Source: a virus
DNA length: 38,221 nt
Direction: 5' to 3' (one strand)
Virus record (IMG/VR): IMGVR_UViG_3300005253_000394
Coordinates: 1-38,221 of that record
Made by a program: the position numbers and the translations under genes. Each line of letters opens with the position of its first letter. Position 1 is the stretch's first letter. The notes below the pieces were generated by a model, which had not been told where the DNA came from, ran no database searches, and worked only from the letters and a program-made list of their open reading frames with translations. Positions 2,581 to 34,906 of this stretch are shown piece by piece.

Positions 2581-2912
2581 TATCTTGTCTCCTTAGTGCT
2601 TGTGGGTCGAACCGAGGGCTCGGCACCCATTATCGTAATAATTTTCATGCCGATGCTGGACTCACCATCCAAAAACATCGTCTCGTAGGGGTTGAACTGC
2701 GCTAGTTCGGCTGAAGGACGAGTGACGTGGCACAGCAACAAAATCTCGTATAACACCCTCCGCCCTTGGTCATTGTCCTGAAATACCCGCTTGAAGTCCC
2801 TGTAGCGGTCCATCTTTGTGTAGTTCTTCTTTCCGGGATGCGCTTGCTGAAGTTCCGCAAAGAAAGCATCAAGATCAGGTTTCCCAGCGCGCCGCCAAGG
2901 CCAAGGGATCAT
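2580..2912 (-). CDS. Bbp19-like head-module protein
   Basis: 110 residues. The core DRYRDFKRVFQDNDQGRRVL, followed by a CHVTRP stretch and a C-terminal MKIITIMG segment, fits the Bbp19 structural protein family of BPP-1 and relatives, encoded between portal and scaffold. Its precise virion role is not established to my knowledge. The start at 2912 is an ATGA overlap with the 54-residue gene upstream. Confidence comes from family pattern plus exact synteny. Confidence 0.75.
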   Translation of the reverse strand: MIPWPWRRAGKPDLDAFFAELQQAHPGKKNYTKMDRYRDFKRVFQDNDQGRRVLYEILLLCHVTRPSAELAQFNPYETMFLDGESSIGMKIITIMGAEPSVRPTSTKETR

Positions 2913-3073
2913 TTTGCCCAGTTACAGCGATAAAACCTAAGCCCCGCACCAGGATATCCACTCTCACGTTTATTAACATGCCAAATCACTACAAACCGCC
3001 CTGTAGACCAAAGAAATTCCAACGAACCCGGCGTATCAATCAGTGGGCGGATTCTCAGTCCTCCAATATTCAT
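2909..3073 (-). CDS. 54-residue protein in the portal-scaffold chain
   Basis: Begins MNIGGLRIRPLIDTPGSLEF. Both ends are stitched by ATGA overlaps, to the 88-residue gene upstream and to the Bbp19-like gene downstream. It contains a short hydrophobic patch (RFVVIWHV, residues 26-33) and a basic Tyr/Arg-rich tail. No family recognised. The double overlap inside a co-directional operon is the main reason to accept it. Confidence 0.6.
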   Translation of the reverse strand: MNIGGLRIRPLIDTPGSLEFLWSTGRFVVIWHVNKRESGYPGAGLRFYRCNWAK

Positions 3074-11846: not shown

Positions 11847-13115
11847 TCAAGCGTGTTGCCTCCAACGATGAGGTTTATATCCTGAGTTTGCCCTCGTGGG
11901 ACGGTTGCCTTTATCACGAGTTTTCTTCGTCAGATTCGGGAATAACTGAGTTAAGGCCCAAACTAGAGCGTCCGCCCTATCGGGTGAACCTTCCCCTTCA
12001 TATCCGGCGGCGGTAAACAGACAGAGTTGATCTTCCAATTGAGGGAAAGCCCCTACGTGAGAAATCTTACCCGTGGTATACAAAGCAGCGATAGGCTCTG
12101 CTCTTACGTGTTTACCTCTCGTGGCTCTGACCTCGATTATCCTCAAATTCGGGCGAATGGTTTTAAGGGTGTGCTTAACCATATCCCCGCCCTGATTTAT
12201 CTCTATGACAATCGCATCCGCTTCGTACCGGTCAAGAGCAGCTATAGCCCTTTCAGCCCACTGTTGAGGCCCGCCCTTACAAGTTACGTCGTCCAGAACG
12301 TACCCACGACCGTCAGAGCCTATTCCAGCGACGATTATTCCGTGCTCGTTCGATTTCTCTTCAGAAGAAACGGCAGGGTCTACCGAGACGACAATCCGGG
12401 ACATTTCTGGAGCTTCTTCAACTCTTCCATTGTGAAGAATGAGACGATTCCAGATTGCTCCAATAGCGGCGGGTTCGTAATCTCCCAACCAGATGTGTCC
12501 GTATCTGTCTCTTGTATGTTGTTCGTCGTAAAGTCTTTCCTCCGTCATAACGTCGGGAAAAAACGGATTCCTGTCATAGTTTGTTCTGACTACGATAGCA
12601 TCCGGTGGAGGAATAGGGCCTCTCAGAAACTCATCAACCGGATCGGAAGCATGTCGGGGATTCCACGAAAACCATATTTCCGATTTGGGCTTTCTAATAG
12701 TAGGGCGAAGCATCTCAAGAGATCGTTTAGTGAGCGTCTGCGCTTCTTCAACATATGCTCTATCAAAACCCTCAAGTGACTTGATACTTTCAGCAGTGTG
12801 GTCCTGCATCCCCTGGAAGAGAATAATCCCACCGCCGGGGGTGTCGATTCTGTCAGACAATATGGTGAATCCCGTTACCTCAAGCGAGGCAATCTTGTCC
12901 TCCATCAAGAGCTTCACAGATTCCTTCAAAGCCTTCTGAACTTCACGAACGCAGACAATTCTTGTTCCGGGTTTCTGCACGCAAAGCTCAATAGCTAGTT
13001 CGGCGAAGAAGTGAGACTTCCCACTGGAGCGGCCTCCGAAAGCTCCTTTGTATCTTGATGGCGATAAAAGCGGTAAGAATACCTTGGCAGTGGGAATCTT
13101 CAGGACTTCAGGCAT
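11847..13115 (-). CDS. terL: Terminase large subunit
   Basis: 422 residues; packages DNA as ATPase and nuclease at the portal. The ATPase half shows Walker A GGRSSGKS (residues 27-34), Walker B-type RAYVEEAQ (119-126) with catalytic Glu, and the coupling motif FSWNPR (149-154). The nuclease half shows SVDPAVS (Asp 246), IVIEINQGGD (Glu 305) and C-terminal SPDRADALVW with Asp 382. This is the Terminase_3/PBSX-like family, and all key residues are present. The start is a TAATG overlap with a 42-residue gene. Confidence 0.93.
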   Translation of the reverse strand: MPEVLKIPTAKVFLPLLSPSRYKGAFGGRSSGKSHFFAELAIELCVQKPGTRIVCVREVQKALKESVKLLMEDKIASLEVTGFTILSDRIDTPGGGIILFQGMQDHTAESIKSLEGFDRAYVEEAQTLTKRSLEMLRPTIRKPKSEIWFSWNPRHASDPVDEFLRGPIPPPDAIVVRTNYDRNPFFPDVMTEERLYDEQHTRDRYGHIWLGDYEPAAIGAIWNRLILHNGRVEEAPEMSRIVVSVDPAVSSEEKSNEHGIIVAGIGSDGRGYVLDDVTCKGGPQQWAERAIAALDRYEADAIVIEINQGGDMVKHTLKTIRPNLRIIEVRATRGKHVRAEPIAALYTTGKISHVGAFPQLEDQLCLFTAAGYEGEGSPDRADALVWALTQLFPNLTKKTRDKGNRPTRANSGYKPHRWRQHA

Positions 13116-13243
13116 TAACGGGGTTTATAACCAATAGGGTCTTTAAAACGAAACAACTCATTCCCTGAAGAATCGAAAAGCCCGGTCGAAACTGGGCCGG
13201 CGGATTCAAAAACATTCAGTCGAGGCGGATCAAGAATTTCCAT
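13115..13243 (-). CDS. 42-residue protein before terminase
   Basis: Begins MEILDPPRLNVFESAGPVST and ends in a TAATG overlap with the terminase start. A GTG at 13276 overlapping the upstream stop would add 11 residues; the ATG is preceded by TGGAG but very closely. Composition is protein-like (alternating hydrophobics, KDPIGYKPR end). No family recognised. It may help couple terminase translation. Confidence 0.5.
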   Translation of the reverse strand: MEILDPPRLNVFESAGPVSTGLFDSSGNELFRFKDPIGYKPR

Positions 13244-13265
13244 CTCCAGATCGTCACTCCAGTAA

Positions 13266-13664
13266 CTACGGGTCACGTAACGCATCGCGTAACTCCTTCC
13301 GCTTCGCTGCCATCCTTAACCGCTCGCGCTCCCGTAATCCAGCGCCGCCTTTCTCTCGGTACTTCTTTTGTTTCTCGGCCTGCGTTAACTTCCTGAATCC
13401 GAGTTCGGCAGCCTTTCGATAAAACTTCTCAGGAATTGTTTCAGAGACGTGGTTTTCAACATCGGGCCTTACGGTCTTCTGGGCGGGGGTGAGGGGGCCA
13501 GATTGGGACGTTGCCCGCTCTATCTCCTGTGGCGGGGTCGTACTGGCCGGTGCTGACTTCTTCGCCTCATTGCGCCCCTCACTTTTCGACGCCGGGATTA
13601 ACGACCCCGAAGGACAAAGCCCGTAATGCTCCTTGCCGCATAACCTACAGCGAGGGGCCTTCAT
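13266..13664 (-). CDS. Small basic protein with N-terminal zinc-knuckle-like motif
   Basis: 132 residues from the ATG at 13664, which overlaps the preceding mini-gene as ATGA; the open frame extends further up but that part is a shadow. The N-terminus MKAPRCRLCGKEHYGLC has C-x2-C-x3-H-x4-C spacing, suggesting a small zinc-binding or nucleic-acid-binding element. A Pro/Ser/Thr-rich linker and a basic helical C-terminus rich in Arg/Lys/Glu follow. Its position before terminase suggests a DNA-related packaging role, but it is not the most obvious small terminase. Confidence 0.55.
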   Translation of the reverse strand: MKAPRCRLCGKEHYGLCPSGSLIPASKSEGRNEAKKSAPASTTPPQEIERATSQSGPLTPAQKTVRPDVENHVSETIPEKFYRKAAELGFRKLTQAEKQKKYREKGGAGLRERERLRMAAKRKELRDALRDP

Positions 13665-13747
13665 TTCAGGGGGCCGTAAGTGAACATCCAAACCACCCAC
13701 ATTACGGTAGCGAAAAAATAAACACCAAAAACTAAAAGCCCGAACAT
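13661..13747 (-). CDS. 28-residue single-pass membrane peptide
   Basis: MFGLLVFGVYFFATVMWVVW plus MFTYGPLK: one hydrophobic helix of about 20 residues and a short polar tail. It overlaps its neighbours on both sides (TGATG upstream, ATGA downstream). No family recognised; similar tiny membrane genes recur elsewhere in this window. Confidence 0.5.
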   Translation of the reverse strand: MFGLLVFGVYFFATVMWVVWMFTYGPLK

Positions 13748-14040
13748 CACCCACCAAAGCCCTCAAGATCACGACAGTCGTTCGTCCGCTTGTAACCCTT
13801 CGCCGGACTCCACCATTCAACATGATGATCCCACGGACCAGGAGCATTGGAAAAACGAACCCACTCCCATCTCAAACCGTCCCATTTCAATTCCCAATCC
13901 CTCGTCACACCCCATGTGGGCTGACGACGAATATCATCCGGTAATTCCGGGATAGGCGAAAACCTTTTTAACACCAATTTCAAAATCACGGCTAAAAGGC
14001 AAACGCCGAGAATCCACAATCCAAATTCCGTTAGATTCAT
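13747..14040 (-). CDS. Membrane-anchored hypothetical protein, first gene after the late promoter
   Basis: 97 residues with one N-terminal membrane segment (LWILGVCLLAVILKLVL, residues 8-24) and a Trp-rich soluble domain (WGVTRDWELKWDGLRWEWV). The ATG is preceded by GGAG at 13 bases, weak spacing. It is the first gene downstream of the candidate promoter at 14.07-14.10 kb. No family recognised. Confidence 0.6.
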   Translation of the reverse strand: MNLTEFGLWILGVCLLAVILKLVLKRFSPIPELPDDIRRQPTWGVTRDWELKWDGLRWEWVRFSNAPGPWDHHVEWWSPAKGYKRTNDCRDLEGFGG

Positions 14041-14347
14041 GTCCGTTGCTCCATAAGATTATCGGTAACGGACAGTAACGGACAACGGTAACGGATGTCA
14101 AGAAGTAACGGACGAACTGGAAATTTAGGTTTTTAAAATTTTGAACTTACTCGAAGTCGTGGTGGGCCAAGGATCGGGGGCCGGCCTCTGTCTCCGGGGG
14201 TACCCCTACCCCGCACAAACCCTTGTATATTAGACAAAGCTAAACTCATAACATTGATTATGGAAAGCCCTGTTTGGCTTCCACCATAGGATACAGCCAC
14301 CGGGTTGTATTTGTGCCCAGGTACCTACCCATCAGTATGTAATGATA
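14041..14347. other. 307-base intergenic region with repeats and dyads
   Basis: No convincing gene on either strand. Contents: the 9-bp repeat array and candidate late promoter at 14065-14113; the 8-bp palindrome GGCCGGCC (14179-14186); the 10-bp palindrome GGGGTACCCC (14197-14206); and an imperfect hairpin TGGAAAGCC/GGCTTCCA near 14260-14283. Being next to terminase genes, part of it may be the packaging (cos or pac) site; there is no direct evidence for this. Confidence 0.6.
14065..14113 (-). promoter_or_regulatory. Candidate late promoter inside a four-copy 9-bp repeat array
   Basis: On the minus strand a perfect -35 TTGACA (14101-14096), an 18-base spacer and -10 TACTGT (14077-14072) point at the late operon starting at 14040. 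Four copies of GTCCGTTAC (one as ATCCGTTAC) lie at 14105-14113, 14088-14096, 14075-14083 and 14065-14073, flanking or overlapping both boxes; an inverted half copy AACGGAC (seen on the minus strand) abuts the start codon at 14041-14047. This looks like a promoter controlled by a repeat-binding protein. Alternatively the repeats are terminase-binding sites. Confidence 0.5.
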
Positions 14348-14695
14348 TCAATGTGTTAGCTTACTTGGCACCATAACCACGCGGCCTGGCCTTGATTCGA
14401 CAACATCGCCCGTTATAACCGGCCTGTCCTCAACGATTACGCGTTCGATACGCGCCAGTACAGGGCCTTCAAGGTCAGCACCAGTCAAGGGCTGCGGGGC
14501 TTTACCGAACCCCCTGTCCAGGGCCAACGCAAGCGCCCTCAGGCGTATATTCTCGTCAGCGCTACGGCATAGCTTTAACACGGCTTTAATGAGTTCAGGC
14601 GCGTGTTTGGCGAATGCGCCCTTGATATCTACCGATGACTTATTGCGCGCACCAAAGGGCCTTCCAGCGCCTTCACGCTTACCGCCAATGCTCAT
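14348..14695 (-). CDS. Putative terminase small subunit / DNA-binding protein
   Basis: 115 residues beginning MSIGGKREGAGRPFGARNKS, the GGxREGAGRPxGARNK signature found at the N-terminus of many phage small-terminase-like DNA-binding proteins. A helical middle (IRLRALALALDRGFGKAPQP) and a beta-rich end follow. Located 1.2 kb upstream of terL with the same orientation. Recognition of packaging DNA is inferred; a regulator is the alternative. Confidence 0.6.
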   Translation of the reverse strand: MSIGGKREGAGRPFGARNKSSVDIKGAFAKHAPELIKAVLKLCRSADENIRLRALALALDRGFGKAPQPLTGADLEGPVLARIERVIVEDRPVITGDVVESRPGRVVMVPSKLTH

Positions 14696-19848: not shown

Positions 19849-20352
19849 TCAAGTCCCTGCAATTAGCGCCTTCAACCCATCCGTCAATTTCCTCTGTCGA
19901 TTCTTGTGCTTCCCCGTGATTGCCGGTATCGGGAAGCTCTGCCGCTCCATCACGCAGACATTAAATACCTGAGTATAACACCCTCTCGATAATGCCTTCA
20001 ACGCCTTGCCTAACCTCGCTTCCAGCTTTATCAGTTTCCTTAATTCTTCCGGTGAAGCCTCTCCGGTGCCCTTGGACGACCTGTCGGCGTCAACTGCCTG
20101 TGGATGTACCTTGTGAACTGCTTTGTACGTCCTGGCGAACCTGAGCCCCGCAGAGAGCATATCTAAACTGATTACTCCCCGGATATGTAACAAGTCCAGT
20201 GGACAGGATGTCTTTGAAGGGTCGCCGCCTTGCGCCAGATTCAGCCTCATTAATTGATGCTCCGGGGTTCCGTAGTCTCTTTGTGGATTTCTTTGTACCC
20301 GTCCATCGGATTCTCGCGGACCGGATTTCTTTGGTCGGCCACGGCGGTTCAT
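19849..20352 (-). CDS. Phage protein with basic N-terminus (NRRGRPKKSGPR type)
   Basis: 167 residues from the ATG at 20352 (ATGA overlap with the gene upstream); the longer frame is a shadow. The N-terminus is MNRRGRPKKSGPRESDGRVQ, an AT-hook-like basic element, followed by YGTPEHQLMRLNLAQGGDPS and a helical domain containing the sequence AGLRFARTY. This two-part layout is a common prophage family, probably DNA-binding, of unknown role. Last gene of the long early operon. Confidence 0.6.
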   Translation of the reverse strand: MNRRGRPKKSGPRESDGRVQRNPQRDYGTPEHQLMRLNLAQGGDPSKTSCPLDLLHIRGVISLDMLSAGLRFARTYKAVHKVHPQAVDADRSSKGTGEASPEELRKLIKLEARLGKALKALSRGCYTQVFNVCVMERQSFPIPAITGKHKNRQRKLTDGLKALIAGT

Positions 20353-20642
20353 TTGCCCTCTCGTATGGCGGTGAGGATGGCGCGATATCCTTGCAAAACA
20401 TCCCACGCACGCGCCTTCGGGTCGCCGTGGCATGTAGGCTTGTCCATTGCCTCGAATGCCGCGTGCGCGGCCTCCCCCGGCTCCATGAGAATATCAAGCG
20501 CCACATCAGCATCCCGCGCATATGGGCAAACACTATCTCGGCCAGCATGGACACACGCCGTCAAACAGCCTTCATGGGTGCCGTCCGGGAGACGATTGTC
20601 CTCTTGGCACAGCCCAAGCTCCAAACGTGTGCGCGTATTCAT
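20349..20642 (-). CDS. Hypothetical phage protein
   Basis: 97 residues: NTRTRLELGLCQEDNRLPD at the start, then VCPYARDADVALDILMEPGE, a recognisable small phage family with a conserved CP.ARD segment. Five Cys in all. Function unknown. ATGA overlaps on both sides. Confidence 0.6.
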   Translation of the reverse strand: MNTRTRLELGLCQEDNRLPDGTHEGCLTACVHAGRDSVCPYARDADVALDILMEPGEAAHAAFEAMDKPTCHGDPKARAWDVLQGYRAILTAIREGK

Positions 20643-25330: not shown

Positions 25331-25476
25331 TTTGGGGTTCCAATTATAATTGGACATTCGCCCATTAAATTTCCTATCAAAACGTCAAGCAAATCAGGCG
25401 TGCCACCAAACAAGAACGCAGCAAAAATAATTGACGCAATTAACCAAAGAAATGTCTTATCTGACCCGCTAATCAT
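25327..25476 (-). CDS. 49-residue membrane protein
   Basis: MISGSDKTFLWLIASIIFAA then FLFGGTPDLLDVLIGNLMGE: one clear membrane helix (residues 9-23). It overlaps the upstream gene by eight bases and the downstream gene by ATGA. No family recognised. Confidence 0.52.
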   Translation of the reverse strand: MISGSDKTFLWLIASIIFAAFLFGGTPDLLDVLIGNLMGECPIIIGTPK

Positions 25477-25750
25477 TTGACACCAACCTCAACGCCTCTG
25501 TCGCCGTCATGCGCTTGCCGAATTCGCCGGGGCCGTCGTACTCGTTTAGCCATTCTCCAGAGTTCAGCCACGACGCCGCGTGAGGGCAGAACTTTATCTC
25601 ACCATGCCAGGGTTCCGCCTGAATGAACCGCTCAAGCCCCTCCATGACCTCCTCATGCGTTGCGACTAGCATGGCCTTGTCATATGCCCGCTCGGCGTTG
25701 AAGGGCTTCACACGACGTGGGAAACGGCTGTAGAAGGCTTTGAAGGTCAT
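25469..25750 (-). CDS. Replication-protein-like C-terminal domain
   Basis: 93 residues: FYSRFPRRVKPFNAERAYDK, VMEGLERFIQA and KFCPHAASWLNSGEWLNEYD. This pattern (aromatic-PR, AxxAY.KA, GLxRF, PHAATWLN..W) is typical of the C-terminal helicase-loader/DnaT-like part of phage replication proteins. Here it stands alone without an N-terminal winged helix, so it could recruit the host helicase together with a partner, or be a remnant. Confidence 0.6.
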   Translation of the reverse strand: MTFKAFYSRFPRRVKPFNAERAYDKAMLVATHEEVMEGLERFIQAEPWHGEIKFCPHAASWLNSGEWLNEYDGPGEFGKRMTATEALRLVSND

Positions 25751-26850: not shown

Positions 26851-26996
26851 TCTGGATTTACCCTGCAACAGACCTCGAAAACATCGTCCCAGGTTGCGTC
26901 CGCTCTGTTTAGCGCCCCCAGCGCCTTCAGGGCGTCACTAGGGCGTGTGAACAGGCTCTGTAGGTATCTGTGCATCAGAAGGGCGTTCTCATTCAC
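26847..26996 (-). CDS. 49-residue helical protein
   Basis: GTG start overlapping the LexA-like stop as GTGA. (M)NENALLMHRYLQSLFTRPS, then DALKALGALNRADATWDDVF. Helical, acidic end with two adjacent Cys. It ends in an ATGA overlap. No family recognised. Confidence 0.52.
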   Translation of the reverse strand: MNENALLMHRYLQSLFTRPSDALKALGALNRADATWDDVFEVCCRVNPE

Positions 26997-27208
26997 TTCA
27001 CCAGCCTTAAAGTCCGGGCGCGTGCGGGCAGGCGGGTAATGTGTCCTCTTTCTTCAAGTGCAGTGAGAAGGCGGAATGTGCCGCTCTTCGAAGCCAGTCC
27101 TATCGCCTCGGTAATTTCTTCATAAGATGGCGCGTATCCGTTTTCGCCGATAAATTTCGTGACGAATTCAAGGCATTGCTTCTGGCGTTTGGTGAGGCCG
27201 TGTTTCAT
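26993..27208 (-). CDS. LexA-N-like winged-helix protein
   Basis: 71 residues: LTKRQKQCLEFVTKFIGENG, YAPSYEEITEAIGLASKSGT and RLLTALEERGHITRLPARAR. This is the LexA N-terminal DNA-binding domain pattern without the self-cleavage peptidase domain. It may regulate the operon or host SOS-box genes. ATGA overlap with the gene upstream. Confidence 0.75.
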   Translation of the reverse strand: MKHGLTKRQKQCLEFVTKFIGENGYAPSYEEITEAIGLASKSGTFRLLTALEERGHITRLPARARTLRLVK

Positions 27209-34363: not shown

Positions 34364-34379
34364 TGTCTTACTCCTTACG

Positions 34380-34414
34380 AAAAGCCCCGCCCGGCGTGAA
34401 CCAGACGGGGCGGG
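34380..34414 (-). terminator. Intrinsic terminator upstream of holin genes
   Basis: Minus strand CCCGCCC (34414-34408), 15-base loop, GGGCGGG (34392-34386), then CTTTT. It separates 34419-34838 from the holin pair. Confidence 0.62.
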
Positions 34415-34418
34415 TTGA

Positions 34419-34838
34419 TTAAGCTGCGACCGCAGCGGCAGGCAGACCGGAGGACAGTCCTTGATCAGGCTTGTCGTCGTTTGAGCGGGCAAAGCCAGAA
34501 ATTTCAATTATTTCGTAACTCACGATTTCGGCCAGAAATGCGCGCCAAGTTTCCTCGTTGAGCGGCCCTTCGGTCATGTCCCTACCACGCGTCCAGTCCT
34601 CCCCTGCGCGTGGCTTGCGCGTATCGCTGTTGCACATCAATGACGGCTCGGCACGATTGATGAGAACCATCCGCCATTTGTGGGTATGTGTGAAAAAGCT
34701 GAACGGATAACATACGTGTTCGCTCTTTCCGATTTCACCGGCAGCGTAAGGCTTTTCGGCTAATATGTGGGTATCCCATTTGGCAAAGCGGCCAAGGTCG
34801 CGGTCGAACCATGTCTTCAAGTCTTCGATGGAAGCCAT
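34419..34838 (-). CDS. Hypothetical protein near lysis genes
   Basis: 139 residues from ATG 34838, AAAGGAGAG before it. MASIEDLKTWFDRDLGRFAK, YPFSFFTHTHKWRMVLINRA, acidic C-terminus ending in Ala. Soluble, no signal peptide. No family recognised. Bracketed by terminators on both sides, so it is a separate transcription unit or relies on read-through. Confidence 0.6.
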   Translation of the reverse strand: MASIEDLKTWFDRDLGRFAKWDTHILAEKPYAAGEIGKSEHVCYPFSFFTHTHKWRMVLINRAEPSLMCNSDTRKPRAGEDWTRGRDMTEGPLNEETWRAFLAEIVSYEIIEISGFARSNDDKPDQGLSSGLPAAAVAA

Positions 34839-34885
34839 AACGGCTCTCCTTTCAAGTTGAGTGCCGCCCATAACGGACGGACACG

Positions 34886-34906
34886 AAAAAGCCCTTGCAA
34901 AAAGGG
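34886..34906 (-). terminator. Intrinsic terminator at the end of the candidate RNA
   Basis: Minus strand CCCTT (34906-34902), five-base loop, AAGGG (34896-34892), then C-TTTTT (34890-34886). Confidence 0.55.

Follow-up and report, generated by a model that had tools for sequence, protein, structure and literature searches.

The stretch of DNA analysed here, hereafter the window, is a whole IMG/VR virus record of 38,221 nucleotides and belongs to a tailed phage with a leftward late module, in which the order is terS-like gene, repeat array, 97-aa ORF, KYREK gene, 56-aa ORF, terL, portal and capsid. The terS-like gene (14348-14695, minus strand, like the other genes given coordinates in this paragraph) encodes a 'GAGRP' protein that matches phrog_15261 and is a probable terminase small subunit, judging by its position and by its relative in locus L003, which abuts terL and matches phrog_641; the protein had been put forward by the initial annotation as a possible regulator of the repeats, a role that this resemblance does not favour. 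The first ORF after the array (13747-14040, 97 aa) is by eye a probable membrane protein. It is followed by the KYREK gene (13266-13664), which encodes a small basic protein of 132 aa (pI 10.0), our candidate reader of the array, and whose reading frame stays open up to 13847. 'KYREK' is our own name for the basic 31-residue C-terminal module of this protein (LTQAEKQKKYREKGGAGLRERERLRMAAKRK, encoded at 13296-13388), which lies within a predicted C-terminal helix. Between the KYREK gene and terL (11847-13115; Pfam Terminase_3/Terminase_6C) stands a 56-aa ORF (13115-13285) with a weak relative in locus L004.

The array itself occupies 73 bp at 14041-14113 and consists, on the minus strand, of three exact copies of GTCCGTTAC, a copy with one mismatch, ATCCGTTAC, and one inverted near-copy, in the order GTCCGTTAC-8-ATCCGTTAC-4-GTCCGTTAC-1-GTCCGTTAC-15-GCAACGGAC-ATG. 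Copies 1, 3 and 4 (14105-14113, 14075-14083 and 14065-14073) are the exact ones and copy 2 (14088-14096) carries the mismatch, while the inverted copy (14041-14049) is GTCCGTTGC on the plus strand and reads GCAACGGAC, again with one mismatch, on the minus strand. The spacers are TTCTTGAC between copies 1 and 2, CGTT between copies 2 and 3, a single T between copies 3 and 4, and CGATAATCTTATGGA between copy 4 and the inverted copy, which fits between the Shine-Dalgarno sequence GGAG (14052-14049) and the ATG (14040). Copies 3 and 4 thereby form the pair GTCCGTTAC-T-GTCCGTTAC, and this 10-bp-spaced pair, with C or G as third base, recurs in the loci L092, L095/L106 and L207 described below. Single near-matches to the repeat are common in the window (12 found against 6.3 expected). 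GTAACGGA, however, is the sole 8-mer of the window with four copies inside 73 bp, and none of 300 dinucleotide-shuffled windows held any such four-copy cluster, so that the array is real, down to the inverted near-copy reaching the ATG that had been reported, and its clustering is not due to chance. A scan of the gap upstream of the array found no terminator-like site.

A pattern scan of the viral collection returned a single further phage sharing this architecture, L092 (record G001, 57 kb), where the array reads GTGCGTTAC-11-GTCCGTTAC-4-GTCCGTTAC-1-GTGCGTTAC-16-GTAACGCAC-ATG. Over 91 bp the two arrays are 77% identical, their 13/10 spacing is the same, and in L092 the inverted copy likewise lies between the Shine-Dalgarno sequence and the ATG. 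So far as it posits protein-binding repeats at the start of a gene in the late region, the initial proposal is supported. The array stands at a gene start in both phages, but the genes are unrelated (97 aa in the window, 55 aa in L092). A whole-record comparison showed the phages to be distantly related and broadly collinear, with late modules that are unrelated (Head-tail_con portal and Phage_capsid_2 in the window versus P22_portal and P22 coat in L092) and terminases that have no significant similarity. The only late protein that they have in common is the product of the second gene after the array, the KYREK protein (30% identity, 7e-08). The array had also been placed upstream of the packaging operon, a reading that neither phage supports: in the window the terS-like gene precedes it and terL comes after it, whereas L092 has it 53 bp after both terS and terL, so that there it cannot be the promoter of those terminase genes. 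Among terminase relatives, the exact array was found in 0 of 45 IMG/VR loci checked and 0 of 80 GTDB loci. Another route to further relatives, through a SLOG protein, yielded only the contig of L092. Elsewhere in the window, the stretches 34372-34440, which contains a GC-rich inverted repeat, and 34825-34893 flank a 150-aa ORF of unknown function and are 78-81% conserved in the L092 record (46666-46735 and 46952-47018).

Within the array, TTGACA (14101-14096) and TACTGT (14077-14072) are present 18 apart as the initial annotation had described, and could form a sigma-70-type promoter (14072-14101, minus strand). TACTGT, however, matches TATAAT at only 3 of 6 positions, a sigma-70-type match of equal quality (TTGTCC-16-GATAAT) overlaps it, and at the same position L092 has TTGCGT instead of TTGACA and no clear TATAAT-like -10 box. 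The hexamers are thus present in the window and not kept in L092, the promoter reading is left unsupported, and the interleaved promoter may not be real.

The KYREK proteins are basic (pI 9.8-10.2) and are predicted to end in a long C-terminal helix (pLDDT 87-88 over residues 111-130). Neither the protein nor the module has a match in Pfam (E up to 0.1), NCBIfam (E up to 1) or PHROGs (E up to 0.01), profiles of known DNA-binding families (HTH, LexA, MarR, zinc finger etc.) do not match it, and the best match in a PDB search, a bZIP, is not significant (E 0.84). The module is absent from 385 genomes of the class of Roseococcus. Among other possible readers in the window, a stand-alone LexA-type DNA-binding domain protein of 71 aa (26993-27208; Pfam LexA_DNA_bind 7e-17), which has no peptidase domain, was set aside as G001 has no match to it. 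The protein at 19849-20433 is basic and common to the window and L092, but as a regulator it was rejected as well, having no family or phage match.

A model of the module built from the window and L092 sequences alone, searched over 191 loci (1.64 Mb), gave two further significant matches, L100 (8.9e-07) and L095 (8.9e-05). Both loci had originally been fetched for their GTCCGTTAC tandems, and L100 is not a blind case, since its motif was spotted by eye and chosen as a seed after the array had been seen; L095 and L207 are cleaner. The latter came from a search of the viral collection that used the module as its only query and took no account of the DNA repeats. It returned the contig of L092 and L207, and L207 afterwards showed GTGCGTTAC-T-GTGCGTTAC at both record ends. 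All five module records (window, L092, L100, L095 and L207), which come from about three lineages, thus carry tandem GTSCGTTAC, compared with tandem pairs in 0 of 160 terminase-relative loci (1.38 Mb) used as a control. The repeat sites are restricted to the array or arrays in G001, G004 and G005, and four of five lie within the array in G003. In L100, the KYREK gene itself contains the four repeat copies, and these fall in two different reading frames, so that it is the DNA and not the peptide on which selection acts.

Most other contigs with two close copies of GTCCGTTAC have no module. The remaining tandems (L084-L105, mostly inside genes) and the pattern matches L107-L110 were likewise found to lack it and were treated as having other causes, and a looser viral pattern, CGTTAC...ACGNACATG, gave three matches, all unrelated. 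The three-repeat core had no match in 84,980 species genomes, and a literature search for the 9-mer returned no relevant paper among the matches listed. CGTTAC-type repeats also occur inside phage coding sequences in L091, L094, L098 and L109, where they encode VTD/NVT peptide repeats, and in several of these the repeat-bearing protein has an ERQRRYR-like basic stretch.

The two cleaner records are PRD1-like. The linear record L095/L106 (G004, 16.9 kb) carries the pair GTCCGTTAC-T-GTCCGTTAC at either end, with the left-hand pair 9-27 bp from the terminus, and L207 (G005, 16.6 kb) is a linear PRD1-like genome; taken together, the repeats of these records lie 9-37 bp from both ends. The L095 PolB is 38% identical to the PRD1 DNA polymerase, and in both records the module is carried by the protein encoded directly upstream of PolB, which is the terminal protein's place in tectiviruses. 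The candidate terminal proteins (L095:3548-4519 and L207:5149-6120) are nearly identical except for the C-terminal module; a terminal-protein-like structure model had low confidence (pLDDT 43) and was set aside. Gluconobacter phage GC1 (MG159787) resembles L095 in encoding a protein, GC1_00003, directly upstream of PolB, and this has a weak N-terminal similarity to the KYREK-bearing protein (E 0.002). In contrast to L095 and L207, GC1 lacks GTSCGTTAC in its ITR and gives no significant match to the module.

Variation in the module and in the repeat can be followed together. Module residues 21-22 are RE in the window and RD in both L100 and L095, where the sites are of the C-type only, whereas they are AN in L092, where the sites are mixed, and KN in L207, where they are of the G-type, so that residue 22 is D or E with C and N where G occurs; L092 nevertheless retains two C-type sites despite its AN. 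Between L095 and L207, whose proteins are 92% identical, 7 of 27 module residues are changed versus 15 of 249 elsewhere (Fisher p = 0.0024), and between the same two records the repeats go from C-type to G-type. A joint change in two sister pairs makes a residue/base covariation suggestive but does not prove it.

Given that module and repeat occur together in five records, and given this covariation, the array is probably the binding site of the KYREK protein (13266-13664), contacted through its module. The repeats (consensus TGTSCGTTACY) would be docking sites for the 31-residue basic helical module, and several KYREK molecules would occupy 14041-14113 next to one another, in the interval that separates the terS-like gene from terL. 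Once bound, they would cover the ribosome-binding site together with the promoter interleaved there, should it be real, of an operon comprising the KYREK gene itself, terL and the structural genes, and the consequence that we prefer is that the late operon autoregulates by occlusion. We infer both the physical binding and its regulatory outcome; autoregulation of the late operon is favoured by the fit of the array over the ribosome-binding site and start codon in two phages, and we would give it a little less than an even chance. Autoregulatory phage operators have repeated sites at the start of the operon encoding the binder, and here the array likewise stands at the start of the operon encoding its candidate binder. 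KYREK differs from them, however, in having no HTH and in that its module also occurs in tectivirus-like phages with sites at the genome ends. Since the L100 array lies in a gene and the L095 and L207 arrays at genome ends, promoter occlusion cannot be a general role.

The initial annotation had instead taken TTGACA-18-TACTGT as a late promoter switched by one of two HTH proteins or the GAGRP protein acting on the repeats, which we consider improbable. Both hexamers are present in the window and the repeats span about -48 to +25 of the predicted start, but the hexamers decay in L092, the GAGRP protein looks like TerS, nothing ties either HTH protein to the repeat, and the small HTH genes that precede terS in the window and L092 have no detectable similarity to each other. 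Among the closest parallels are the Ltr/RinA/Alt late regulators of Gram-positive phages (Staphylococcus phi13 and phi11, Lactococcus TP901-1), which bind four direct repeats at late promoters (PMC13123087). Here as there, the phage protein is small and basic, with about 130 aa, the direct repeats are imperfect and four in number, and the packaging genes adjoin. The Ltr/Alt repeats, however, sit at -76 to -32 and -107 to -42, upstream of the promoter that they activate and not across it (PMC13123087), whereas those of the window overlap the predicted -35, -10 and +1; the KYREK gene is found downstream of the array, whose upstream neighbour is the terS-like gene, rather than directly upstream of the promoter as for the Ltr-type activators, and KYREK has no family match. 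The inverted copy could alternatively act in the mRNA, pairing with copy 4 in a hairpin that holds the Shine-Dalgarno sequence and so serves as a translational operator. The L092 sequence can form a perfect stem of 10 bp that ends at the ATG and in which the C to G change of copy 4 is matched in the inverted copy, and that of the window forms one of 8 bp with an A-C mismatch; this is a single compensatory change, however, and direct copies 1-3 and the genome-end arrays would be left unexplained, and we regard such an operator as unlikely.

An alternative that we take seriously, and hold tentatively at some way below an even chance, is that KYREK reads the array as an address for packaging (a pac-like site) or for a replication start, and not for transcription control. 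Its appeal comes from the distance between array and terL, about 1.6 kb at most in each of the three tailed phages, and from the PRD1-like records, with terminal repeats and the module on the protein in the terminal-protein position. Some pac sites lie inside terS genes, and the L100 array lies inside a gene upstream of terL, with no terS family recognised among the neighbours tested. Pac and cosB sites, which are read by their own terminase through the binding of small subunits, also resemble the array in having several short repeats adjoining the terminase genes. However, the window and L092 have terS-like genes of their own, and phages whose small and large terminases are unrelated have this one array in common, which speaks against its being read directly by a cognate terminase; the tight fit of the inverted copy between Shine-Dalgarno sequence and ATG in two phages would also be left unexplained. 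Replication iterons for a conventional initiator unrelated to KYREK seem very unlikely: CGTTAC-type repeats do occur inside other phage genes, some of them replication-like (L094, L109), but the replication-initiation-like gene of the window (25469-25750) contains no copies and is located 11 kb from the array, whose spacing is irregular and which straddles the ribosome-binding site.

Returning to KYREK as the binder of the array, the sequence comparisons tip the balance slightly towards a single-helix DNA-recognition module of a kind not described before, which has a 9-bp word of its own and is employed by unrelated virus classes: in tailed phages it would belong to a stand-alone protein encoded next to the terminase genes, and in PRD1-like phages, whose ends carry the word as well, it would sit on the presumed terminal protein, module and word changing together. 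An orphan phage array would thereby gain a named candidate binder, and the compact helix may contain a recognition code. The packaging region of tailed phages would also be linked to tectivirus-like genome ends, where it could be asked how a terminal protein recognises its origin.

Two side loci may be mentioned. In Microcystis phage Mwe-JY13 (PP438406, 40503-41296; L112:2546-3339), an unannotated gap after terL has by eye the look of a structured RNA, with no Rfam match and no tRNA or tmRNA, and 110 nt of it are 78% identical at the DNA level to the middle of the L092 KYREK gene. In L032, a terminase relative of the window (62% TerL), another direct-repeat array, of TGTCCCA, lies at 2900-3000 between terS and terL, ahead of an HTH-like gene, and the reading frame of TerL contains an intein-like insert, whose opposite strand bears an HNH-like ORF.
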